Assembly: GCA_947305035.1 (NCBI GenBank)
Contig: CAMZCV010000007.1
Span: forward strand, 1-14,090
DNA length: 14,090 nucleotides
Source of the DNA: an uncultured Coriobacteriales bacterium
GTDB lineage: Bacteria; Actinomycetota; Coriobacteriia; Coriobacteriales; Atopobiaceae
Direction of reading: 5' to 3'
In this document: piece after piece, positions 3,398 to 13,777 of the stretch
How the letters are laid out: each line of letters begins with the position of its first letter
Position numbering within the stretch: the stretch's first letter is position 1
The notes under the pieces: generated by a model
Databases searched by the model: none
What the model was told of the DNA's origin: nothing
The model's input: only the letters and a program-made list of their open reading frames with translations
Made by a program: the position numbers and the translations under genes

Positions 3398-6076
3398 ATG
3401 AGGGAGTATCTCGAATCCGCTGAGAAGGTCGTCGAAGACCAAGGGACGGATGTCAAAAACGGTCTCACCGCCGCAGAGGCAGCGGCGCGTCTCCAGAAGA
3501 ACGGTCCCAACAAGCTGAAGGAAGCCGAGAAGGACCCGCTGTGGAAGCGGTTCTTCGCCATGATGGCCGACCCGATGGTCATCATGCTCATCATCGCGGC
3601 GGTCATCTCCGCCGTGACCGGCATGATGCAGGGCGAGGCTGACTTCGCCGACGTCTTCATCATCATGTTCGTGGTCGTGCTCAACTCCGTGCTCGGCGTG
3701 GTGCAGGAGTACCAGGCCGAGAACGCCCTCGCGGCCCTGCAGGAGATGAGCGCCGCCCAGTCCAAGGTCATCCGCGACGGGCGCCAGATCTCCGTGCCCT
3801 CCGCCGAGATCGTGGTGGGCGACATCGTCATCCTCGAGGCCGGCGACGCGGTGCCGGCAGACTGCCGCATCATCGAGAGCGCCTCGATGAAGGTCGAGGA
3901 GAGCGCGCTCACCGGCGAGTCGGTTCCCGTGGATAAGATTGTCAAGATCCTCGGCCTTCCCGCCGGGCATGAGGACGTTCCCCTGGGCGACCGCAAGAAC
4001 ATGTGCTACATGGGCTCCACCGTGGTGTACGGTCGCGGCGTTGCCGTGGTCATCGCAACCGGCATGGATACCGAGATGGGCAAGATCGCCGACGCCATCG
4101 CAAACGCGGCTGACGAGCTCACGCCGCTTCAGATCAAGCTCAACGAGCTCTCCGGCGTGCTCACCAAGCTCGTCGTGGGCATCTGCGCCATCGTCTTCGT
4201 GGTGGGTATCTTCCAGCACGGCGGCATGGCGTTCTTCCAGGATATGGACCAGGTGCTCAACACCTTCATGGTCGCCGTGTCGCTCGCCGTGGCCGCCATC
4301 CCCGAGGGCCTCGTGGCCGTGGTGACCATCGCCCTTTCCATCGGCGTCACCAAGATGAGCAAGCGCCGCGCCATCGTCCGCAAGATGAACGCCGTCGAGA
4401 CGCTCGGCTGCACGCAGGTCATCTGCTCCGACAAGACCGGCACCCTCACGCAGAACCGCATGACCGTCGTGAAGCACTACTCCGAGGACACCCCGCGCCT
4501 AGTGCGCTGCATGGCGCTCTGCTCGGATGCCAAGTGGGATAGGGTTGCCGAGCAGGCCGTGGGCGAGCCCACCGAGGCCGCCCTCGTTGCCGACGCCGCC
4601 AAGATGGGCTTCACCTCCAGCGACCTCGATGCAGCCAACCCGCGCGTGGGCGAGGCGCCGTTCGACTCCGGCCGCAAGATGATGTCCGTGGTGAACCTCT
4701 CGCCGTCCGGCGACTACATCCAGCACACCAAGGGCGGCCCCGACGTGGTTCTCGCGCGCTGCACCAAGTTCCACACCTCCGAGGGCGACGTTCCCATGAC
4801 CGACGAGCTGCGCGCCAAGATCATGGAGCAGAACAAGGCCATGGCCGACGACGCGCTGCGCGTCATGGCCGCCGCCCGCGTGAACTACCACAAGAATCCG
4901 CCCGCCAGCTACGAGGCGGCAGATCTCGAGAAGGACATGGTCTTCATCGGCCTCTGCGGCATGATCGACCCGGTGCGCCCCGAGGTCAAGGACGCCATCA
5001 TGGAGGCCCATGGCGCCGGCATGCGCGTGGTCATGATCACCGGCGACCATATCGACACCGCCGTGGCCATCGCCAAGGAGCTCGGCATCGTGCGCGATAA
5101 GAGCCAGGCCATCACCGGCGCAGAGCTCGACAAGATCTCCGACGAGGACTTCTTCACGCGCATCGAGGAAATCGGCGTCTACGCGCGCGTCCAGCCCGAG
5201 CACAAGACCCGCATCGTCGACACGTGGAAGAAGAAGGGCATGGTCGTCGCCATGACCGGTGACGGTGTCAACGACGCGCCCTCCATCAAGAAGGCCGACA
5301 TCGGCGTGGGCATGGGCATCACCGGCACCGACGTCACCAAGGGCGTCGCCGACATGGTGCTCGCCGACGACAACTTCGCCACCATCATCGGTGCCGTCGA
5401 AGAGGGTCGCCGCATCTACGACAACATCCGCAAGGCCATCCAGTTCCTGCTCTCGTCCAACCTCGCCGAGGTCATCTCGGTGTTCGTGGCGTCGCTCATC
5501 GGCTTCGTCATCCTCGAGCCCACGCACCTGCTGTGGATCAACCTCATCACCGACTCCCTGCCGGCGCTTGCCATGTGCATGGAGGAGGCCGAGCCCGACA
5601 TCATGAAGCGCAAGCCGCGCAACTCCAAGGACGGCATCTTCGCCAACGGAATGGGCATCGACACGCTCTTCCAGGGCGCTGTCATCGCAGCTCTCACGCT
5701 CGCTTCGTACTTCATCGGCATCAGCCACGCCGGCGTGAGCCTCGCCGAGGCCGTTGCGAGCGATCAGGCCGGTCTCGAGGGCATGACCATGGCGTTTCTC
5801 ACGCTCTCCATGGTCGAGATGTTCCACTCGCTCAACATGCGCAGCCGCCGCGGCTCCATCTTCAAGCTCCCCACGCAGAACGGCTGGGCTTGGGGCGCCT
5901 TCGCGCTTGCGCTCCTGCTCACGTGGGTCGTCATCGAGACCCCGCTCTCGCAGCTCTTCCACTTCGCAGAGCTCGACCTCATGCACTACGGCATCGCCAT
6001 GGCGCTCGCGTTCTCGATCATCCCGATCATCGAGATCTACAAGTCCGTCATGCGCGGCATCGAGAAGGAGAAGTAG
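3398..6076 (+). CDS. P-type calcium-transporting ATPase, SERCA-like (P2A)
   Basis: ATP-driven cation pump of the cytoplasmic membrane, 892 residues, predicted to export Ca2+. Landmarks in order are an N-terminal cation-ATPase domain, TGES at 172-175 (actuator), PEGL at 302-305 (M4), the phosphorylation motif DKTGTLTQ with D345, MITGDH, and the hinge TGDGVND with D622 and D626. Residues that bind calcium in SERCA have counterparts: E303 in M4, N688 and E691 in M5, N715, T718 and D719 in M6, and E807 in M8. This suggests both calcium sites are retained, whereas PMR1/PMCA-type pumps lose one. ATG 3398 is chosen because AGGAGG lies seven bases upstream; ATG 3392 would be too close. Its stop is 3 nt from rsgA, so the two are probably one operon. 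Substrate is inferred from conserved residues. Confidence 0.93.
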
Positions 6077-6079
6077 AGC

Positions 6080-7177
6080 GTGGCGAAGCGCGGCGGCTCA
6101 AAGCGCACGCAGTCTACCGACGCCGGCAGGGTCATCGAGGCCCTGCCGGCGCTCTCGCATCTGGCCGATGTTCCCAACTTCGACGAGCTGAAGCCGCACG
6201 ACTCCCAGCGCGCGGCATTTGCCCGAGCACAGGATCGGCTGGGCGATGACGTGGAACTCGCCTGCGTGGTGCGCCTCGACAGGGGCTTTCCCGCGCTTGC
6301 CACGGAGAACGCGCTCTTCCGCGCCGAGTTCGCGACCAAGCTCACCAAGGGCGGAGACAGCCGCGTGGCCGTGGGCGATTGGGTTGCGGCGCGCCGTCCT
6401 GCCGAGCACGATATGGGCCTTATCGAGGAGATCCTCCCGCGCACGAGCGATATTGCCCGCTGGCGCGGCAAGGCGCGTGGCGAGAAGCAGACCCTCGCCG
6501 CCAACGTCGACATCGTCATCGTGGTGCAGGCGCTCCTGCCGGGCGAGTTCGACCCCGAGCGCATCGTGCGCTCCGCCGTCATCGCGCGGGATTGCGGTGC
6601 CGAGGTCGCCGTGGTGCTCACCAAGGCCGACCGCGTGGATGCCGCGCACCGCGAGGCTGCTGTGGCTGCTATCAGGGCGCTCATCGGCGATGATGTCTCC
6701 ATCGCCGTGACTTCTTCGGAGGAGGGGAGCGGCATCGACGACGTGCGTGCCCTTGTCCCCTCGGGCACCATCGCCATCGTGCTGGGGGAGAGCGGTGCGG
6801 GGAAGTCAACGCTTCTGAATGCCCTGCTCGGCCACGAGGCGCTCGAGACGGGCGCCGTGCGCGAGCGTGACGACGCGGGGCGCCATACCACCGTGGCGCG
6901 CCGTATGGTGTCGCTGCCGAATGCGGGCATCATCGTGGACGAGCCCGGGCTTCGGAGCCTGCCGCTCGTGGGGCACGAGCGTGGGCTCGCCAAGGTGTTC
7001 CCCGATATCGCAGAGGCGGCTTCTACCTGCAAGTTCAGGGATTGCACCCACACGCACGAACCCGGATGCGCCGTGCGCGGCGGTTCGTTTGCACCCGAGC
7101 GTGTGGCAGCCTATGTTGCCCTCGCTTCCGAGATGCGCGCCAACGCCGCCACCCTCGATCCCGACATCGTGCTTTGA
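6080..7177 (+). CDS. rsgA: small ribosomal subunit biogenesis GTPase RsgA
   Basis: Circularly permuted GTPase that helps late maturation of the 30S ribosomal subunit. The 365-residue protein has a basic N-terminal tail, an OB-like region around 58-125, then the permuted G motifs: G4 TKAD (181-184), G5 near S212-S213, G1 GESGAGKST (236-244), G2 around T270-T271 and G3 DEPG (287-290, instead of the usual DTPG). The C-terminal zinc site follows as C317, C322, H324 and C330, matching the family spacing C-x4-C-x-H-x5-C. The start is GTG, with AAGGAG nine bases upstream inside the end of the ATPase gene, so translation is probably coupled. The TGA stop is the first three bases of the first REP unit, so the C-terminus may have been defined by insertion of that element. 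Confidence 0.92.
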   Translation: MAKRGGSKRTQSTDAGRVIEALPALSHLADVPNFDELKPHDSQRAAFARAQDRLGDDVELACVVRLDRGFPALATENALFRAEFATKLTKGGDSRVAVGDWVAARRPAEHDMGLIEEILPRTSDIARWRGKARGEKQTLAANVDIVIVVQALLPGEFDPERIVRSAVIARDCGAEVAVVLTKADRVDAAHREAAVAAIRALIGDDVSIAVTSSEEGSGIDDVRALVPSGTIAIVLGESGAGKSTLLNALLGHEALETGAVRERDDAGRHTTVARRMVSLPNAGIIVDEPGLRSLPLVGHERGLAKVFPDIAEAASTCKFRDCTHTHEPGCAVRGGSFAPERVAAYVALASEMRANAATLDPDIVL

Positions 7178-7237
7178 GACAGTGCTCCCGGGGAGGAGTG
7201 TCTCACTGAGACAGTGCTCCCGGGGAGGAGTGTCTCA
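7175..7237 (+). repeat. left REP pair (two 31-bp palindromic units)
   Basis: Units at 7175-7205 and 7207-7237 are identical and in direct orientation, separated by one C. Each starts TGAGACA and ends TGTCTCA (7-bp outer stem), with an inner CTCC/GGAG stem around loop CGG and a bulged GAG on the right arm (GGAGGAGTG). The first three bases of the first unit are the rsgA stop codon. Such palindromes can also stabilise mRNA 3' ends; there is no T-run, so intrinsic termination is not indicated. Confidence 0.9.
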
Positions 7238-7255
7238 CCGAGGACCGCCGCATTG

Positions 7256-7264
7256 TGCTATCGT
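7256..7264 (+). promoter_or_regulatory. possible extended -10 for the RAYT gene
   Basis: TGCTATCGT lies 30 bp before the RAYT start and is identical to the extended -10 proposed for the response-regulator gene. No recognisable -35 is present, since that position falls at the end of the second REP unit. Weak evidence. Confidence 0.25.
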
Positions 7265-7294
7265 TCTGACCCAATCAAACATCGGGAGGACGCC

Positions 7295-8035
7295 ATGGCA
7301 CACCGGCAATTGAGCGAGTCGGGCTTCTACCACATCACCATGCGCAGCGCAGGCCAGATCGCCCTGTTCGAAGATGATGACGATCGCAGGAAGTACCTTT
7401 CTTTGCTTAAAGCTGCACGCGACAAGTACAACGCGCGGATCATCGCCTGGGTGCTTATGACCGACCACGTGCACCTTATCGTAGATTTCGGTGAGAATCC
7501 CCAGAATATCAGCGCATTCATGCATTCGATCGATCATCCCTACAGTTGCTACTTCAATGCGAAGACGGGCAGATCGGGCACTCTGTTCCAGAGTGTGTTC
7601 TGGAGCAAACCGCTCATCGATGACTCCCAGCTCATCGCCACAACCTACTATGTCCATATGAACCCTGAGAATGCCTGCATCGCACCCATGCGGGAGTATC
7701 GGTGGAGCAGCTATCGCGAGTATGCAGGGCTGCAGTGGGCCGTCGACACGAGCACGGTGCTCGAATTGTTCGGAAGTTTCGAGGCGTTCGATGCATACGA
7801 AGGGTCGCCGAAGGATGTTGTAAGCAGGGCATCATCCGTGGCCCCGCAAGACGGAGATGTGCTTGCGAGGGCGATGGCCCTTGCTGGAGTGAAGACCTCG
7901 GACGAGCTCAGGGCCCTTCAAAAAGTGCAGCGAGATGAGCTGATCCGAAAACTTGCGAGCGAGGGGAACAGCGCGCGGAAGATTGCGCGATCATTCGGAA
8001 TCGGCCATGCGACCGTCTCCCGCATCATAAAATGA
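7295..8035 (+). CDS. REP-associated tyrosine transposase (RAYT, Y1/HUH family) with C-terminal HTH
   Basis: Single-strand DNA nuclease and strand-transfer enzyme of the Y1 class, 246 residues. The metal-binding HUH pair is H58 and H60 in MTDHVHLIV. The nucleophile is probably Y119 in TTYYVHMNPEN, followed by the family motif EYRWSSYREYAG (134-144). The C-terminal residues from about 211 to 246 (RDELIRKLASEGNSARKIAR, then SFGIGHATVSRIIK) form a helix-turn-helix that probably binds DNA. ATG 7295 has GGAGG five bases upstream; an open frame extends further upstream but only through the REP unit. The TGA stop is the first codon of the first downstream REP unit. The neighbouring palindromes are its likely substrates. 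All key residues are present, so it looks intact. Confidence 0.92.
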   Translation: MAHRQLSESGFYHITMRSAGQIALFEDDDDRRKYLSLLKAARDKYNARIIAWVLMTDHVHLIVDFGENPQNISAFMHSIDHPYSCYFNAKTGRSGTLFQSVFWSKPLIDDSQLIATTYYVHMNPENACIAPMREYRWSSYREYAGLQWAVDTSTVLELFGSFEAFDAYEGSPKDVVSRASSVAPQDGDVLARAMALAGVKTSDELRALQKVQRDELIRKLASEGNSARKIARSFGIGHATVSRIIK

Positions 8036-8094
8036 GACAGTGCTCCCGGGGAGGGGTGTCTCATGAGACAGTGCTCCCGGGGAGGGGTGTCTCA
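8033..8094 (+). repeat. right REP pair (two 31-bp palindromic units)
   Basis: Units at 8033-8063 and 8064-8094 abut with no spacer and are identical to each other. They match the left pair except for one base, with GGAGGGGTG where the left units have GGAGGAGTG. Orientation is the same as on the left. The first unit begins with the RAYT stop codon, and the last TCA (8092-8094) is the stop codon of the minus-strand flavoprotein gene. Confidence 0.9.
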
Positions 8095-8724
8095 CGAGGG
8101 CATGATGAAGTGCGTGCGTGCCCCGCGCTCCGGCTGGGGATGCTCGATACCCGCAGCACGTCCCGCCTCGATGCAGCGTAGGAGCCACGCCATGTTGTGC
8201 GCAAGGTTGCGCAGCGTCTGCATGCCCTCCTCATCGCGCATGAGGTCATCATGCGTGAAACCGTGCAGCTCGTTCCAGTAGGTGGAGCCCACGCAGGGCA
8301 TGCCCGCGATGCCGAAGTACTTGTTCATCACGTCGAGCGTCGCCGTGGTGCCGGCGCGTCGAGCCACGCAGATCGCTGCACCGGGCTTGCCGTCGAACAC
8401 CTTGCGGAAGCCCGCATAGAAGACGCGGTCCAAGAAATCGAGCACGCGGCCCGCGGGATGGGCGTAGAAGACGGGCGTGGCGAAGATGAAGCCATCGGCC
8501 CCCTCCGCCTTGTCGATGAAGTCGTTCACGCCGTCATCCTTGAAGATGCAGCGTCCCGTTTCGGAGCATTTCCCGCAACCCAGGCAATCGCGCACAGGCG
8601 CAGCGCCCACGTTGACGATCTCGCTCTCGATGCCGTCCTTCTCGAGCTCAGACGCGATGTACTCCAGCATGAACGCGCAGTTGCCCTCCGCGCGCCAGCC
8701 GCCGTTCAACATGAGAACCTTCAT
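8092..8724 (-). CDS. flavodoxin-fold iron-sulfur flavoprotein / NAD(P)H-dependent oxidoreductase
   Basis: Predicted FMN-binding redox protein of 210 residues in the NADPH-dependent FMN reductase superfamily. The N-terminus MKVLMLNGGWRAEGNC is strand 1 and the phosphate-binding loop of the flavodoxin fold, and TPVFYAHPAG (83-92) is the loop over the isoalloxazine ring. A compact cysteine motif C47-x2-C50-x2-C53-x5-C59 matches that of iron-sulfur flavoproteins, which bind a 4Fe-4S cluster, so electron transfer in anaerobic or oxygen-stress metabolism is likely; the physiological partner is unknown. ATG 8724 has AGGAG eight bases upstream. The gene diverges from the response regulator and its -10 overlaps that gene's proposed operator. 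Its TGA stop is provided by the end of a REP unit. The last 10 or so residues (ERGARTHFIMPS) look unconserved. Confidence 0.82.
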   Translation of the reverse strand: MKVLMLNGGWRAEGNCAFMLEYIASELEKDGIESEIVNVGAAPVRDCLGCGKCSETGRCIFKDDGVNDFIDKAEGADGFIFATPVFYAHPAGRVLDFLDRVFYAGFRKVFDGKPGAAICVARRAGTTATLDVMNKYFGIAGMPCVGSTYWNELHGFTHDDLMRDEEGMQTLRNLAHNMAWLLRCIEAGRAAGIEHPQPERGARTHFIMPS

Positions 8725-8746
8725 GGCAGCCTCTCCTCTCTGTGCG

Positions 8747-8778
8747 TTAAGCTTCATTTTAGGTTACGCTGCTATCGT
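8747..8778 (+). promoter_or_regulatory. candidate response-regulator operator and promoter (autoregulation)
   Basis: Two half-sites, TTAAGCTT (8747-8754) and TTTAGGTT (8758-8765), are repeated with an 11-bp period, the spacing typical of OmpR/PhoB-family binding sites. Seven bases later an extended -10, TGCTATCGT, is present (TATCGT at 8773-8778). There is no recognisable -35, as expected for a promoter whose -35 region is replaced by an activator site. The same layout occurs before the VTC gene at 10836-10867. Binding of the neighbouring regulator is inferred. Confidence 0.5.
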
Positions 8779-8783
8779 GGCAA
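8756..8783 (-). promoter_or_regulatory. candidate promoter of the flavoprotein gene
   Basis: On the minus strand TTGCCA (8783-8778) and TAAAAT (8761-8756) are separated by 16 bp. Each differs from consensus at one base. The predicted start near 8749 gives a leader of about 25 nt containing the GAGAGGAG ribosome-binding site. The -10 lies inside the direct repeat proposed as a response-regulator site, so binding there would be expected to repress this promoter. Confidence 0.6.
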
Positions 8784-8812
8784 CCTACGGTTACGTGGAC
8801 GAAGGGAAGACC

Positions 8813-9496
8813 ATGAGGATCCTTCTCGCAGAAGACGAGCGCGAGCTTTCCCGTGCCCTCGTCGCGATTCTCAATCACGCCGGCTATACGGTCGACGCCG
8901 CGCTCGACGGCGAGGAAGCGCTTTACAACCTCGATATCAACGACTACGACATCGCCATCCTCGACATCATGATGCCCAAGGTCGACGGGCTCACCGTGCT
9001 CAAGACCATCCGCGAGAAGGGCCTCGCCCTGCCCGTGCTCATGCTCACGGCCAAATCCGAGATCCGCGACCGTGTTGCAGGGCTCGATGCCGGTGCCAAC
9101 GACTACCTCACGAAGCCCTTTGCGGCGCAGGAGCTGCTCGCGCGCATCCGCGTCCTCACGCGCACCACGCCCACGGTGGCCAAGCGCGAGCTCTGCTTCG
9201 GCGACATCTCCCTCGACGAGCAGGCTTCCCAGCTGGTGTGCGCCAGCGAGCGCGTCGACCTCACCGCCCGCGAGTTCCAGATGATGGAGATGCTCGTCAC
9301 GGCCAAGGGCGCAAAGCTCTCCACCGATGCGTTCATGCGCAAGGTCTGGGGCTCGCTTTCGGATGTCGAGACGAGCGTGGTGTGGGTGAATCTCTCCAAC
9401 CTGCGCAAGAAGCTGACACGGGTTGGCTCGTCGGTGCGTATCTCTGCGCTGCGCAATGTGGGTTACTTCCTCGAGGTGGGGGAGAACGAAGGATGA
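8813..9496 (+). CDS. OmpR-family response regulator transcription factor
   Basis: Two-component DNA-binding regulator of 227 residues. The receiver domain (1-115) has acidic residues E7 and D8, phosphoacceptor D51 in IAILDIMMPKVDG, T79 in LMLTAK, and K101 in DYLTKPF. The C-terminal winged-helix domain (about 130-223) shows FGDISLDEQASQLV, LTAREFQMMEML and VVWVNLSNLRKKL with the terminal hairpin RNVGYFLEV. ATG 8813 follows GAAGGGA at suitable spacing. The stop overlaps the start of the histidine kinase by four bases (ATGA), so the two are translationally coupled partners. Direct repeats at its own promoter and at the VTC promoter suggest its regulon. The signal it answers to is not known. Confidence 0.95.
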   Translation: MRILLAEDERELSRALVAILNHAGYTVDAALDGEEALYNLDINDYDIAILDIMMPKVDGLTVLKTIREKGLALPVLMLTAKSEIRDRVAGLDAGANDYLTKPFAAQELLARIRVLTRTTPTVAKRELCFGDISLDEQASQLVCASERVDLTAREFQMMEMLVTAKGAKLSTDAFMRKVWGSLSDVETSVVWVNLSNLRKKLTRVGSSVRISALRNVGYFLEVGENEG

Positions 9497-10791
9497 TCAA
9501 GCAGCTCCGGCGCAAGTTCATCATCATCGCGCTCGCGAGCGTTGCAATCGTGCTGCTCCTTATCGTGGGCGGTATCAATATCGCCAATTACGTCTCGGTG
9601 ATGTCGCAGGAGGATGCGCGCACCGATCTGGTCGCCGCCGCCGATGGCGAGCTTGCCGAGTTCGGCCGGGACCTTTTCGATAACCCGGAGGGAAAGCAGG
9701 GCCCCGGTGGACCTGCTGACTTCCAAGGGCAGGGCTTCGGGCAGCATGGGTTCAACCGCGGCTTGGGACGCGAGACGCCCTTCGACACCCGTTACTTCAT
9801 CGTGTGGGTCGATGCGGATGACAGCGATGCCGACGGTATGCTCGCCGTCTCCGCAGACCTCTCGCACATCATGTCCATCGACGCCGCGGAGGCGCTCGAT
9901 CTGGGCGAGCGCGCATGGAGGTCGAATCGCGAGCGGGGCACCTTGGAAGGCTATCGGTTCCTGCGCTGCGAGATTGACGGCGAGGAAGCCATCGTCTTCG
10001 TCGACATGTCGCGCGAGCTGTCGTCGTTCTCGTCGTTCGCGCTGGCGAGCGCGGTTGCCAGCCTTGTGGGCCTTGCCGCCGTTGCCGCCATCCTCGTGCC
10101 CGTCTCGGCCATCGTGGTACGGCCCATCGAGGAGAGCCAGGAACGCCAGCGGCGTTTCGTCACCGACGCGAGCCACGAGCTCAAGACCCCGCTCGCCATC
10201 ATCTCGTCGAGCGCCGATGTCCTGGAGATCGAGAACGGCGAGAGCGAATGGGTTGAGAGCATTCGCCACCAGGTGAGCAGGCTCTCCGACCTCACAGCCA
10301 AGCTCGTCACGCTCACCAAGGCCGAGGAGGGCACCGCGAGCATGCGGGTGGCCGATTACAACCTCACGGCCGTCGTCGAGGAGCTTGCGCACGAATTCGA
10401 GCCGGTGGCGGTTGCCAACGGCAAGTCGCTCGAGGTTCGCGTGGCGCCCCTGCAAACCGCCCGCGGCGATAAGACGCTTGTGCGCCAGGCGGTTTCGCTC
10501 CTGCTTGATAACGCCCTCAAGCATTCCGACGATGGGGGAGCGGTGCGTCTTTCCGCCGAGGCAAGGCGCGGACATGCGCGCATCAGCGTGTGGAACACCG
10601 TCGACGGGATAGCTCCGGGCGAGCACCCCGAGTTCTTCGAGCGGTTCTACCGCGCCGATGAGGCGCGCTCGTCATCGGGCGGGCATGGCATCGGACTTGC
10701 GGTCGTCTCCGCAATCGCCGAAGCGCATGGCGCCAGCGTTTCCGCTCGCTCCGAAGACGGACGCTCCCTCGAGATCACCGTCACGCTGTAG
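9493..10791 (+). CDS. membrane sensor histidine kinase
   Basis: Partner kinase of the preceding regulator, 432 residues. TM1 spans about 9-32. The extracytoplasmic sensor runs from about 33 to 180 and contains an unusual Gly/Gln/Phe-rich stretch near 69-92 (GPGGPADFQGQGFGQ) followed by a folded-looking segment. TM2 is about 182-209. The dimerisation and phosphotransfer domain has H228 in DASHELKTPLAI, and there is little room for a full HAMP domain. The ATPase domain has N340 in LLLDNALKHS, the F box FERFYRADEA and G2 GGHGIGLAV. The G1 box is degenerate: NTVDGIAPGE stands where DxGxG is usual, a variant I associate with several Gram-positive kinases. The start overlaps the regulator stop. The ligand cannot be told from sequence. 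Confidence 0.93.
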   Translation: MIKQLRRKFIIIALASVAIVLLLIVGGINIANYVSVMSQEDARTDLVAAADGELAEFGRDLFDNPEGKQGPGGPADFQGQGFGQHGFNRGLGRETPFDTRYFIVWVDADDSDADGMLAVSADLSHIMSIDAAEALDLGERAWRSNRERGTLEGYRFLRCEIDGEEAIVFVDMSRELSSFSSFALASAVASLVGLAAVAAILVPVSAIVVRPIEESQERQRRFVTDASHELKTPLAIISSSADVLEIENGESEWVESIRHQVSRLSDLTAKLVTLTKAEEGTASMRVADYNLTAVVEELAHEFEPVAVANGKSLEVRVAPLQTARGDKTLVRQAVSLLLDNALKHSDDGGAVRLSAEARRGHARISVWNTVDGIAPGEHPEFFERFYRADEARSSSGGHGIGLAVVSAIAEAHGASVSARSEDGRSLEITVTL

Positions 10792-10835
10792 ACGCTTCGA
10801 TGCCCCATCGAGGGGCTGCCTCGTCACTGCATGGC

Positions 10836-10867
10836 TTTAGGTTCCATTTAAGTTGCCTCCCTATAGT
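10836..10867 (+). promoter_or_regulatory. candidate response-regulator operator and promoter of the VTC-DUF4956 operon
   Basis: TTTAGGTT (10836-10843) and TTTAAGTT (10847-10854) are direct repeats with an 11-bp period. Seven bases later comes TATAGT (10862-10867), a good -10, and no canonical -35 is present. The TTTAGGTT octamer is also present in the response-regulator promoter with the same spacing grammar. The RNA would start near 10874 with a short leader carrying AAGGAGGTG. Regulation by the adjacent two-component system is inferred. Confidence 0.55.
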
Positions 10868-10894
10868 GTTCTCGACACTCAAGGAGGTGCAACC

Positions 10895-11686
10895 ATGTCC
10901 AACCAGTTCGTGTTCAAGCGCTACGAGATCAAGTACCTCGTCACCGACGAGCAGCGCGCCCGCATCGAGCGCGCAATGGCTCCCTTTATGGTTGCGGACG
11001 AGCACGGCGAGTCAACCATCTGCAACGTCTATTACGACACGCCTTCGCATCTGCTCATCCGCCGCTCTTCCGAGAAGCCCGTCTATAAGGAGAAGGTGCG
11101 CGTGCGCTCCTACGGCCGCCTCGCCGAGGGCGGGGAGATGTTCGTCGAGCTGAAGAAGAAGTACGACGGCGTGGTGTACAAGCGCCGCATCCTCGCCGAT
11201 GCAACCCGCGCCAACGCCCTGCTCTCCGGCGCAGCGGAGCCTGCGGACCAGATCGAGCGCGAAATCGCGTTCGCCGCAAAACGCTATGAGGGCCTCGTGC
11301 CCGCCTGCTACATCGCCTACGACCGCTGCGCGTTCTTCGCCGCCGACGATCGCGGTTTCCGCGTCACCTTCGACCGCAACATCCGCTGGCGCGAGGATCG
11401 TCTCTCGCTCTCCGAGGACACCGACGGCGAGCAGCTGCTCGAGCCGGGGACGTCCCTCATGGAGGTCAAGTGCGCGGGCGCCATGCCGCTGTGGCTCGTG
11501 CGCGAGCTCACGGCGATGCGCCTCTTCAAGACATCCTTCTCGAAATACGGCACGGCGTGGGCCCGCTCCGGTGCTGTCGTGGCCGCTTCGCCCGCTCCCG
11601 TGCGTGCTCCGAGGCACGCCACCGTGCTCCCAACCCCCGCGTTCGCCCATACCCAGCGCCGCGCCGCCCATGCGCGCGTGGCATAG
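10895..11686 (+). CDS. VTC-domain polyphosphate polymerase
   Basis: Soluble 263-residue protein of the VTC/tunnel metalloenzyme fold, the catalytic domain that in yeast Vtc4 makes polyphosphate from ATP. Tunnel residues can be seen in order: KRYEIKY (8-14), KVRVRSYG (67-74, with R69 and R71), VELKKKYDG (84-92), Y142 and R144 in IAYDRCAFF, RVTFDRNI (156-163), and E190 and K192 in MEVK. This is the single-domain bacterial form without the yeast SPX and membrane domains. A 35-residue Ala/Pro/Arg-rich tail (about 228-263) appears disordered. ATG 10895 is chosen over an upstream ATG because AAGGAGGTG sits six bases before it. DUF4956 follows 16 bp later, a known pairing in bacteria. Direct proof of polyphosphate synthesis by this subfamily is limited, so activity is inferred from the fold. 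Confidence 0.87.
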   Translation: MSNQFVFKRYEIKYLVTDEQRARIERAMAPFMVADEHGESTICNVYYDTPSHLLIRRSSEKPVYKEKVRVRSYGRLAEGGEMFVELKKKYDGVVYKRRILADATRANALLSGAAEPADQIEREIAFAAKRYEGLVPACYIAYDRCAFFAADDRGFRVTFDRNIRWREDRLSLSEDTDGEQLLEPGTSLMEVKCAGAMPLWLVRELTAMRLFKTSFSKYGTAWARSGAVVAASPAPVRAPRHATVLPTPAFAHTQRRAAHARVA

Positions 11687-11702
11687 ATAGGAAGTGACCA
11701 AG

Positions 11703-12383
11703 ATGTTCGAATCCCTGTTTGCAACCACCGCCACGACCACCTCGCTCGGAATCTCCTCCATGCTCGCGGCAATCTGCGCCGCCCTCATCCTGGGCCTCGC
11801 AATCTCGTGGGTGTACACGCTGCGCAGCCGTGCCACGCGCTCGTTCGTCCTCGCCCTCGCCATCCTGCCCGCTATCGTCGCCGTCGTCATCATGATGGTC
11901 AACGGGAACGTGGGGGCAGGCGTTGCGGTTGCAGGGGCTTTCTCGCTCGTGCGCTTCCGCAGCGCGCCCGGTTCCGCACGCGATATCTGCTTCATCTTCC
12001 TCGCGATGGCGGTGGGCCTGGTCTGCGGCATGGGATACGTGCTCTATGCGGGCATCATCACCGCCGTCCTCTGCGCCGTGCTCGCAATCTACCAGCTCTC
12101 CGGCCTCGGCATCCGCAGCAGCATGCGCGACCGCACGCTCAGGATCACGATTCCCGAAGATCTGGACTACTCCGACCTCTTCATCGACATCTTCGCCGCC
12201 TATACCACCTACCACGAGCTCGTTGCGGTGAAGACCTCCAACATGGGCAGCCTCTACAGGCTCACCTACGAGGTCGGCATCGCCGACTCGGCAAACGAGA
12301 AGGCCATGATCGACGAGATCCGCTGCCGCAACGGCAACCTGGAAGTCGCTCTGACCCGTCAGGAGACCGAGGGCGCGCTGTAG
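11703..12383 (+). CDS. DUF4956 membrane protein, partner of the VTC polymerase
   Basis: Integral membrane protein of 226 residues with unknown biochemical role. Hydrophobic segments lie near 19-40, 48-68, 96-114 and 115-133. The family signature GNVGAGVAVAGAFSLVRFRS (68-87) sits between the second and third. The C-terminal 80 residues are soluble and may form a ferredoxin-like domain (RTLRITIPEDLDYSDLF, then YRLTYEVGI). ATG 11703 has AGGAAG eight bases upstream; an in-frame GTG at 11694 lies inside that site. Co-occurrence with VTC polymerases suggests it takes the place of the yeast Vtc membrane subunits, for anchoring or passing polyphosphate, but this is a guess. The stop codon falls in the loop of the operon's terminator. 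Confidence 0.88.
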   Translation: MFESLFATTATTTSLGISSMLAAICAALILGLAISWVYTLRSRATRSFVLALAILPAIVAVVIMMVNGNVGAGVAVAGAFSLVRFRSAPGSARDICFIFLAMAVGLVCGMGYVLYAGIITAVLCAVLAIYQLSGLGIRSSMRDRTLRITIPEDLDYSDLFIDIFAAYTTYHELVAVKTSNMGSLYRLTYEVGIADSANEKAMIDEIRCRNGNLEVALTRQETEGAL

Positions 12384-12405
12384 CCAGCCGCCCTCCCTTG
12401 TTTTT
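12369..12405 (+). terminator. intrinsic terminator overlapping the DUF4956 stop codon
   Basis: GAGGGCG (12369-12375) pairs with CGCCCTC (12389-12395), and inside this GCTG (12377-12380) pairs with CAGC (12385-12388) around loop TAGC. A single C (12376) is bulged. The stem is followed by CCTTG and five T residues (12401-12405). The TAG stop of DUF4956 (12381-12383) is in the loop. This is the best terminator in the window and ends the VTC-DUF4956 operon. Confidence 0.85.
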
Positions 12406-12413
12406 CAAACCGC

Positions 12414-12442
12414 GGAACGTTCGTGCTTCCGTTGGGTATACT
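12414..12442 (+). promoter_or_regulatory. candidate promoter of the CPBP gene
   Basis: TATACT at 12437-12442 is a good -10 located 37 bp before the start codon. The -35 position (12414-12419, GGAACG) is poor. It lies directly after the DUF4956 terminator, so this gene is probably a separate transcription unit. Confidence 0.5.
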
Positions 12443-12478
12443 TGACGGTGTGTGTCCGTGCTCCAAAGAGGAGAGATG

Positions 12479-13777
12479 ATGGATAACCATCCGCAGTACC
12501 AGCCCCAGGCTCCCACGAACGTTCCGCCTGCATACCCGCAGCAGGCCTACCAGCAGCAGGCTCCCGCGCCCGCCTACCAGCAGCAGATGTACGCCCAGAC
12601 CGCGTACCAGCAGCAGGCTCCAGCGCCAACCTACCAGCCTCAAGCCCCTGCTCCCACGTACCAGCAGCAGGCCCCTGTCCCCGCGCAGCCTCCTGCGGTC
12701 AAGCCCAAGAAGGGCTGGGGCATGATGTTCGCGGCCTTCGCGCTCGTCCCCTTGTTCATCGTGGGCGAGATCGCCGGCCTGTACCTGGGCGACTACACCC
12801 CGCTCGGAGAGGACATCGGCGCAGAGCTCGGCGGCGCGCTGTCCATGCTCATCCCCTGCCTCCTCCTTGGCGGCGCGAAGGTGGTCAACATCACCAAAGA
12901 TTCGTTCAAGTGGGCATGGCGCGCCCTGTGGTGGTCCATCGCCATCTCTGCGGGCATCGCCATCTACGACCTTTGGGCAACCATCGACGCCGGCGAGTTC
13001 GTGCTCGCCTCCGATTGGCCCTGGCAGTTCTTCCTCTCCGTCGTCTTCTGCATCTTCATCGGCTTCCTCGAGGAGTTCATGGTGCGCGGCCTCGTGCTCA
13101 ACGGCCTGCTCGCCCGTATGGGCAAGACCAGGAAGGGCATCGTGTGGGCCTGCATCCTGAGCTCCATCTTCTTCGGCCTGCTCCATGTCGATGTCACGTC
13201 GATCGGTTCCTCAACCCCGCTTGAGATTCTCCAGGGCGTTCTCAAGGTGCTCCAGACGGGCATGTACGGCTTCGCGCTCGCGGCTGTTGTCTGCAAGACG
13301 GGCGAGATCGTCTCGGCAGCACTGCTCCATGGCCTCGATGACTGGCTGCTCTTCGTGCTCACGTTCGTGATGGGCGAGAACCCCTTCGTGACCGAGTACG
13401 TCTCCGAGGGCACCGAGGAGGGCTGGGCCACTGCGATCGTCTACATCATCTGCATCCTGCTCTACATCCCGCTGGTGGTGCGCGCCATCAAGACGCTGAA
13501 GAACATCGACACGCCCAACCGCGGCGCATTCTTCCGCGAGCGCAAGGGTGTTGTCGAGGCTTCGTCCGCGCCAGCGCCCGCTATGGCGGCGGCTTCAGCA
13601 GCGGGCGTCGTGTCGGCTCCGCAGGTCGCGCCGCAGGTCACGGGATATACTGCTCCCGCCGCTCAGATGTATCAGCAGCAGGCTCCCGCGCCGGTTCCCC
13701 CCGCAGGGTTCGTGCCTACGCAGATTCCCGATCAGTCCCTGTATCAGACGGGTCAAAACGGCCCTCAAAGAATGTAG
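12479..13777 (+). CDS. CPBP-family intramembrane metalloprotease-like protein with low-complexity tails
   Basis: Membrane protein of 432 residues whose core resembles CPBP/ABI (CAAX-processing, bacteriocin-self-protection) glutamic proteases. The three motifs are present: EEFMVR (198-203), F232-x3-H236 in FFGLLH, and HGLDDW (284-289), where D288 stands at the usual Asn/Asp position. About eight hydrophobic segments lie between 79 and 340. The N-terminal 75 residues are Pro/Gln/Tyr-rich with repeats of YQQQAPAP, and the C-terminal 70 residues are Ala/Pro-rich and carry YQQQAPAP again near 398-405, so both tails probably face the same compartment. ATG 12479 is preferred to ATG 12476 because AGGAG is five bases before it. 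Substrate unknown. The last 20 codons overlap the convergent gene. Confidence 0.85.
   Translation: MDNHPQYQPQAPTNVPPAYPQQAYQQQAPAPAYQQQMYAQTAYQQQAPAPTYQPQAPAPTYQQQAPVPAQPPAVKPKKGWGMMFAAFALVPLFIVGEIAGLYLGDYTPLGEDIGAELGGALSMLIPCLLLGGAKVVNITKDSFKWAWRALWWSIAISAGIAIYDLWATIDAGEFVLASDWPWQFFLSVVFCIFIGFLEEFMVRGLVLNGLLARMGKTRKGIVWACILSSIFFGLLHVDVTSIGSSTPLEILQGVLKVLQTGMYGFALAAVVCKTGEIVSAALLHGLDDWLLFVLTFVMGENPFVTEYVSEGTEEGWATAIVYIICILLYIPLVVRAIKTLKNIDTPNRGAFFRERKGVVEASSAPAPAMAAASAAGVVSAPQVAPQVTGYTAPAAQMYQQQAPAPVPPAGFVPTQIPDQSLYQTGQNGPQRM

Follow-up and report, generated by a model that had tools for sequence, protein, structure and literature searches.

Promoters activated by response regulators of the PhoB/OmpR class carry a direct repeat with an 11-bp period that replaces the -35 element, and a fixed 9-nt spacing to the -10 is a requirement of the activators in this class. 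Among described systems, the layout that appears closest to the one analyzed here is that of CiaR, published as TTTAAG-N5-TTTAAG situated about 10 nt before the -10, with feedback on the regulator's own genes and control of dltABCD (PMC3091779, PMC8317062). For C. glutamicum MprA the published motif is TKTTAAGAAM, together with evidence for positive autoregulation and with cell-envelope targets (PMC12113857). The genes involved have described counterparts as well. Specifically, the Pel clusters of Gram-positive bacteria have been reported with CotH, polyphosphate polymerase and DUF4956 accessory genes (PMC7112168), and for Cthe_2159 proteins a beta-helix fold and binding to cellulose and polygalacturonic acid have been described (PMC6712302). 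Bacterial VTC-DUF4956 operons have little assigned biology. A literature search that covered few subscription journals found no title on the control of such an operon, a narrower search also found none, and no paper was found that combined Coriobacteriia, a response regulator and a binding motif.

The locus analyzed here lies in a 14,090-nt window (the whole stretch of DNA that was analyzed) from the assembly of an uncultured Coriobacteriales bacterium (G000; 1.66 Mb in 339 contigs, 68.75% complete), and its features are collected in Table 1. The window's regulator matches PF00072 with 109 bits and PF00486 with 59.5 bits, both above cut-off, and this combination of a receiver with a Trans_reg_C winged helix is that of the OmpR/PhoB family; among the NCBIfam matches listed, all were below cut-off. 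In a phylogenetic tree this regulator falls in clade A (12 rows, support 100/99), and clade B (support 100/100) consists of a paralogue that many genomes carry, with the assignment to clade B by tree covering 25 rows only. For the VTC protein, no solved structural relative was found by sequence at E 0.01. The gene that follows DUF4956 is the CPBP protease in the window and in the genus genome G053, and a long Cthe_2159-like gene in G031 (PF14262) and G061 (by resemblance). On the other side of the regulator lies a flavin-reductase-like gene (8092-8727), and an IS200-like (Y1_Tnp) transposase gene (7238-8035, + strand) is found between a GTPase-like gene and the flavin-reductase gene.

Table 1. 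Promoter elements and genes of the regulator-VTC locus, with positions counted within the window.
Feature	Position	Strand	Sequence or domains	Context
Operator 1, direct repeat with 11-bp period	8747..8765	+	TTAAGCTT-CAT-TTTAGGTT	upstream of response regulator gene
Operator 1 half-sites	8747-8754, 8758-8765	+	TTAAGCTT, TTTAGGTT	separated by CAT
-10 after operator 1	8773..8778	+	TATCGT	spacer ACGCTGC (7 nt); regulator ATG 8813
Response regulator, OmpR/PhoB family (clade A)	8813..9496	+	PF00072, PF00486	clade by tree
Sensor histidine kinase	9493..10791	+	HisKA + HATPase_c	start overlaps regulator stop
Operator 2	10836..10854	+	TTTAGGTT-CCA-TTTAAGTT	upstream of VTC gene
Operator 2 half-sites	10836-10843, 10847-10854	+	TTTAGGTT, TTTAAGTT	separated by CCA
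-10 after operator 2	10862..10867	+	TATAGT	spacer GCCTCCC (7 nt); VTC ATG 10895
VTC-domain protein, polyphosphate polymerase-like	10895..11686	+	PF09359, 126.8 bits (cut-off 23)	
DUF4956 protein	11694..12383	+	PF16316, 62 bits (cut-off 30.6)	
CPBP (Rce1-like) protease	12461..13777	+	PF02517	follows DUF4956; without a separate operator

The original prediction had placed two such repeats, each 7 nt from a -10 and with no -35, at the regulator and VTC promoters, and reading the sequence directly locates both repeats and both -10s at the predicted positions, correct to the base. The two halves agree at six of eight positions in operator 1 and at seven of eight in operator 2, and when written in hexamer register both elements read TTHAGG-N5-TTHAGG-N9-TANNNT. 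At the -35 positions given by a 17-nt spacer the sequences are AGCTTC (operator 1 promoter) and AGGTTC (operator 2 promoter), and a consensus scan of the + strand from 8600 to 12600 found no sigma-70-type promoter, in agreement with the claim that neither promoter has a -35. A degenerate half-site pair followed by N9 and YANNNT has two matches on both strands of the whole window, which are operators 1 and 2, so the CPBP and ATPase promoters indeed carry no such element. Likewise, exact TTWARSTTN3TTWARSTT occurs twice in the window's assembly, again as the two operators. When up to two mismatches are allowed this pattern has seven matches relative to three for a reversed-pattern control, indicating that the loose repeat by itself hardly exceeds background. 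On the sequence evidence, it is the fixed spacing to the -10, the conservation and the position before particular genes that make these elements more than chance. Note that a sigma-70-like match, TTGCCA-16-TAAAAT, is present on the - strand at 8756-8783, pointing towards the flavin-reductase-like gene and with its -10 inside operator 1; chance alone would give 0.4 such matches in this region. If this promoter is real, then binding of the regulator would shut off the flavin-reductase-like gene while activating the regulator's own gene.

Loss of the repeats from sister species had been named beforehand as one of the observations that would speak against the prediction, and the sister species keep them. 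A search of five genomes of the window's genus with TTWARSYTN3TTWARSTT, allowing at most one mismatch and placing no requirement on a -10, returned 15 sites relative to three for the reversed control, two of the 15 being the window's own. All except one, which lies before one other gene, precede four gene families: VTC (5), the regulator (4), a Cthe_2159 lipoprotein (3, of which those in G000 and G053 match PF14262 in a search and that in G061 resembles them) and a second predicted lipoprotein that matches no named family (2). Even though the pattern did not ask for it, YANNNT is found at exactly +7 after all 15 sites and TANNNT after 12 of them, as compared to at most four sites with a -10-like hexamer at each of the other offsets from 0 to 24. 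The operator at the VTC promoter is conserved in all five genomes, and the site at the regulator promoter is clear in four, with TTTAGCCTCATTTTAGGTT as the counterpart of operator 1 in G053 and with sites that lie 259 and 332 nt upstream of the regulator start in G031 and G061, respectively.

We also scored promoters across the wider family, leaving the third base of every half-site out of the score, covering 250 nt upstream and taking 11 of 13 as the threshold; the scorer was designed after viewing the sites in the first 61 genomes, which form the in-sample set. At this threshold, sites are found at 21/29 VTC promoters, 13/15 promoters of Cthe_2159 genes outside the operon, 6/11 second-lipoprotein promoters, 14/25 clade B regulators, 4/16 dltA promoters and 2/13 clade A regulators. 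The 14 Cthe_2159 genes within the operon, for which no separate promoter is required, have none. Dinucleotide shuffles of the in-sample regions reach this score in 0.2-1.1% of cases; for the VTC, separate Cthe_2159, second-lipoprotein and clade B promoters the comparison is 55-87% observed versus 0.3-0.8% in shuffles. As for the geometry, half-sites are spaced by N5 in 50 of 80 regions versus 1-14 at the other spacings from N2 to N12, and TANNNT is at N9 in 35 of these 50 versus 0-5 at other distances from N2 to N19 (the spacing counts include four manually entered half-sites of G031 and G061). In the in-sample set the regulator regions of these two genomes were cut such that their sites fell outside, the starts of the G046 Cthe_2159 and G049 second-lipoprotein genes were miscalled, and the G003 VTC gene was left out as having no tblastn match with the window's protein.

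The same scorer, with a slightly different start finder, was applied to 33 genomes unused in its design, where 25 of 36 VTC promoters score at least 11, versus 0/36 on the opposite strand, 0/36 for reversed sequence and 0.8% of mononucleotide shuffles. These 36 were taken from 38 VTC matches, the second copies G081:C10 and G086:C81 being omitted, and they come nearly all from genera present in the first sample, with 14 from one genus and 16 from another (by genus: g9 14/14, g28 8/16, g4 1/3, g7 0/1, g27 1/1 and g30 1/1). VTC promoters with no scoring site number 8/29 in-sample and 11/36 held-out. A scan of 470,055 bases selected around targets yields 26 sites with a score of at least 12, and none in the reversed control; the 26 lie before 15 VTC genes, four clade A regulators, two second-lipoprotein genes, two dltA genes and one other gene, with one site geneless and one before an interrupted regulator gene adjoining VTC in G047 (separate Cthe_2159 sites, which score 11, are outside this list). 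The full element is thus above chance frequency; occurrence at chance frequency had likewise been named beforehand as speaking against the prediction. By comparison, a degenerate 19-mer with no -10 matches 28 times in the 61 genomes; its reversed controls give counts of similar order, and beyond the genus and its near relatives it hardly exceeds them. Two individual loci are also worth recording. One is L183 (G062:C30), where a site with the full score at 2379 is followed after 226 nt by a 398-aa ORF, and the other is L063 (G047:C1, about 5000-7900), where a divergent regulator-kinase pair adjoins VTC with sites facing both. Since the G047 regulator and VTC genes each contain an in-frame stop codon, both may be decaying.

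Taken together, the tandem half-sites at about 11 bp, the lack of a + strand -35 and the fixed distance to the -10 are the layout of an activated promoter, and the claim of an OmpR/PhoB-type operator that replaces the -35 and is common to the regulator and VTC promoters is strongly supported at the level of sequence. A further claim, that the site would track both the VTC genes and this regulator, holds for the former and fails for the latter. Clade A is present in 13 and VTC in 61 of 140 genomes, and their co-occurrence is not significant (8/13 versus 53/127, p 0.24), for which reason a general partnership of the clade A regulator with VTC was rejected. The tie of the regulator to its own expression is similarly divided: a site at its promoter is present in four of the five genus genomes, but the scorer finds none at other clade A regulators. 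Specifically, own-promoter sites that score at least 11 within 250 nt are found only in G000 and G053, the sites of G031 and G061 lie farther upstream, G004 and G013 have only a weaker or shifted site, and none was found in the other seven of the 13 clade A genomes. This evidence counts against simple autoregulation across the whole of clade A. Clade B regulators often do carry the same layout, N6-N5-N6-N9-TANNNT, at their own promoters (L128, L130-L134, L201-L203, L212, L214 and L215), and the clade B paralogue, acting through similar sites, probably fills the role in genomes that lack a clade A regulator.

This raises the alternative that the operators are real and that another OmpR-family regulator binds them, whether from clade B or from elsewhere in the family, with the neighboring pair merely linked to VTC. 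Such a reading would account for the sites at 14 of 25 clade B promoters, and for the fact that most site-bearing VTC promoters are in genomes that lack clade A. We nevertheless consider it unlikely for the window's genus. In the window's genome (69% complete) the next regulator match is about 36% identical and no clade B gene turned up, and among the matches listed for G053 and G031 the second-best are 39% and 42% identical, respectively, and fall outside clades A and B. Moreover, the clade A regulator-kinase pair adjoins VTC, in the same gene order, in six genomes that span three genera (G000, G053, G031, G013, G004 and G061). The half-sites themselves also argue for the adjacent regulator. 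With kinship ignored, a C at the third base is found in 0 of 42 half-sites in the clade A set versus 47 of 124 others (33/74 in the in-sample clade B set and 14/50 in the held-out set). From these observations we infer that the adjacent regulator is the likely binder in the window's genus.

A T at the third base, with kinship again ignored, is found in 29/42 clade A half-sites versus 5/74 others in-sample; the view that T is nearly exclusive to clade A was softened by its presence in 13 of 50 held-out VTC half-sites, and the absence of C stands. Three promoters come from genomes in which clade A lies elsewhere. Of these, the two VTC promoters (G015 and G043) carry C in all four half-sites, and the third bases at the Cthe_2159 promoter of G001 are T and A. 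The recognition helices differ as well, with W191, N193 and N196 in 11/12, 11/12 and 12/12 clade A rows (kinship ignored), versus E, Y and F at the same positions in all 25 clade B rows. A tentative history, to which we give somewhat less than even odds, is that a dlt-linked clade A regulator came to lie beside VTC and took over an older regulon of VTC, Cthe_2159 and surface-lipoprotein genes from clade B, with the third base moving off C and the helix residues changing from E, Y and F to W191, N193 and N196. If so, then VTC-DUF4956 would belong to a cell-surface or adhesion program and not to a phosphate store. Two paralogous regulators whose half-sites are related and yet distinguishable also provide a natural example of a regulon changing hands and of altered DNA specificity.

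A second alternative is that the regulator is a repressor that covers the -35 region and thereby blocks RNA polymerase. The site does overlap this region, and operator 1 also overlaps the - strand promoter-like match that faces the flavin reductase gene. However, there is no + strand -35 to be covered, the fixed 9-nt spacing to the -10 fits the requirement of an activator, and CiaR-controlled genes of like layout are described as mostly under positive control (PMC8317062), which together make repression improbable. Rigid spacing to the -10 could also be expected if the hexamer pair were a core promoter element for an alternative sigma factor, and this is very improbable, as two tandem hexamers with an 11-bp period are the layout of an OmpR-family dimer and the element is restricted to a small number of gene families and occurs at response regulator promoters of two clades. 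Chance likeness of A+T-rich promoter DNA, for which only the near-background counts of the loose patterns (7 versus 3 and the 28 matches of the 19-mer) speak, has a negligible probability and was rejected on the basis of the shuffles, the reversed sequence, the opposite strand and the held-out genomes.

We therefore favor, with a probability of roughly 75%, the explanation that both elements are OmpR/PhoB-family operators through which the adjacent regulator activates transcription in this genus, with clade B most likely doing so in relatives that lack this regulator. In the proposed mechanism, the kinase would phosphorylate the adjacent regulator, which would then bind head-to-tail over the -35 region and recruit RNA polymerase. 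Activation of its own promoter would constitute positive feedback, and its other targets would be VTC-DUF4956, the separate Cthe_2159 lipoprotein gene and the second predicted lipoprotein gene. The apparent regulon includes secreted lipoproteins and so reaches past polyphosphate; it has the look of a cell-surface program.

PF14262 is present in 25 of 26 genomes with VTC relative to 7 of 35 with no VTC (Fisher 1.3e-9), and in 15 of these 25, judged by coordinates, a copy lies within about 2.5 kb downstream of VTC. The idea that separate Cthe_2159 genes are operon genes that have moved away was dropped on the basis of frame lengths. Nine of the 15 separate frames are 454-491 aa long and those of G004, G005, G009 and G046 are 579-734 aa, so the separate genes may represent a different paralogue class. 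The separate copy of G005 is located at the start of a contig and may be a continuation of the VTC operon. The conserved operator draws VTC-DUF4956 and secreted carbohydrate-binding proteins of the Cthe_2159 type into one probable regulon.

As for the signal, four genomes (G024, G015, G043 and G026) have the clade A regulator in divergent orientation to dltA, a gene for D-alanylation of teichoic acid, and a site that scores at least 11 faces dltA in three of them (G015, G024 and G043), which lends support to an envelope signal as originally proposed. The dltA promoter of G026 has only the proximal half-site, with a score of 9, and among 12 dltA promoters with no clade A linkage one (G044) scores 11. 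Regarding the assignments, G043 DltA has 476.6 bits (cut-off 476) and DltB 420.5 (cut-off 375), and the G024 DltA match of 441 is below cut-off. The signal sensed is probably envelope stress, judging from this linkage. The location of the regulator's relatives beside dltA, in combination with the common operator, provides a concrete hypothesis for when and why VTC-DUF4956 is made, and makes its role testable.

Relative to the described systems, the window's promoters share their core sequence with the MprA motif as published. However, that motif is a single 10-bp block with no fixed pair and no fixed distance to the -10, and the MprA targets include sigE, sigB and htrA. The 11-bp direct repeat in place of the -35 is shared with the PhoB/OmpR class in general; the half-site sequence differs, and no link to phosphate genes was seen. 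With CiaRH, by its published description, the window's promoters share the layout of hexamer-N5-hexamer before the -10, with related half-sites, and an OmpR-type regulator; the feedback of CiaR on its own genes and its control of dlt would correspond here to the predicted positive feedback and to the sites that face dltA in G015, G024 and G043. There are several differences. Half-sites here are TTTAGG and TTAAGG as well as TTTAAG, the distance to the -10 is N9, the hosts are actinobacterial, and the recognition helix reads VVWVNLSNLRKKL here versus VVEVYVSKVRKKL in CiaR. In the three genus genomes searched for DltA (G000, G031 and G053) no match was found at E 1e-80, and VTC and lipoprotein genes stand in the place of dlt. 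Finally, the Pel clusters resemble this locus in combining a VTC-like polymerase gene and a DUF4956 gene, whereas the partner here is a PF14262 Cthe_2159 gene that shares either the same operon or a common operator.
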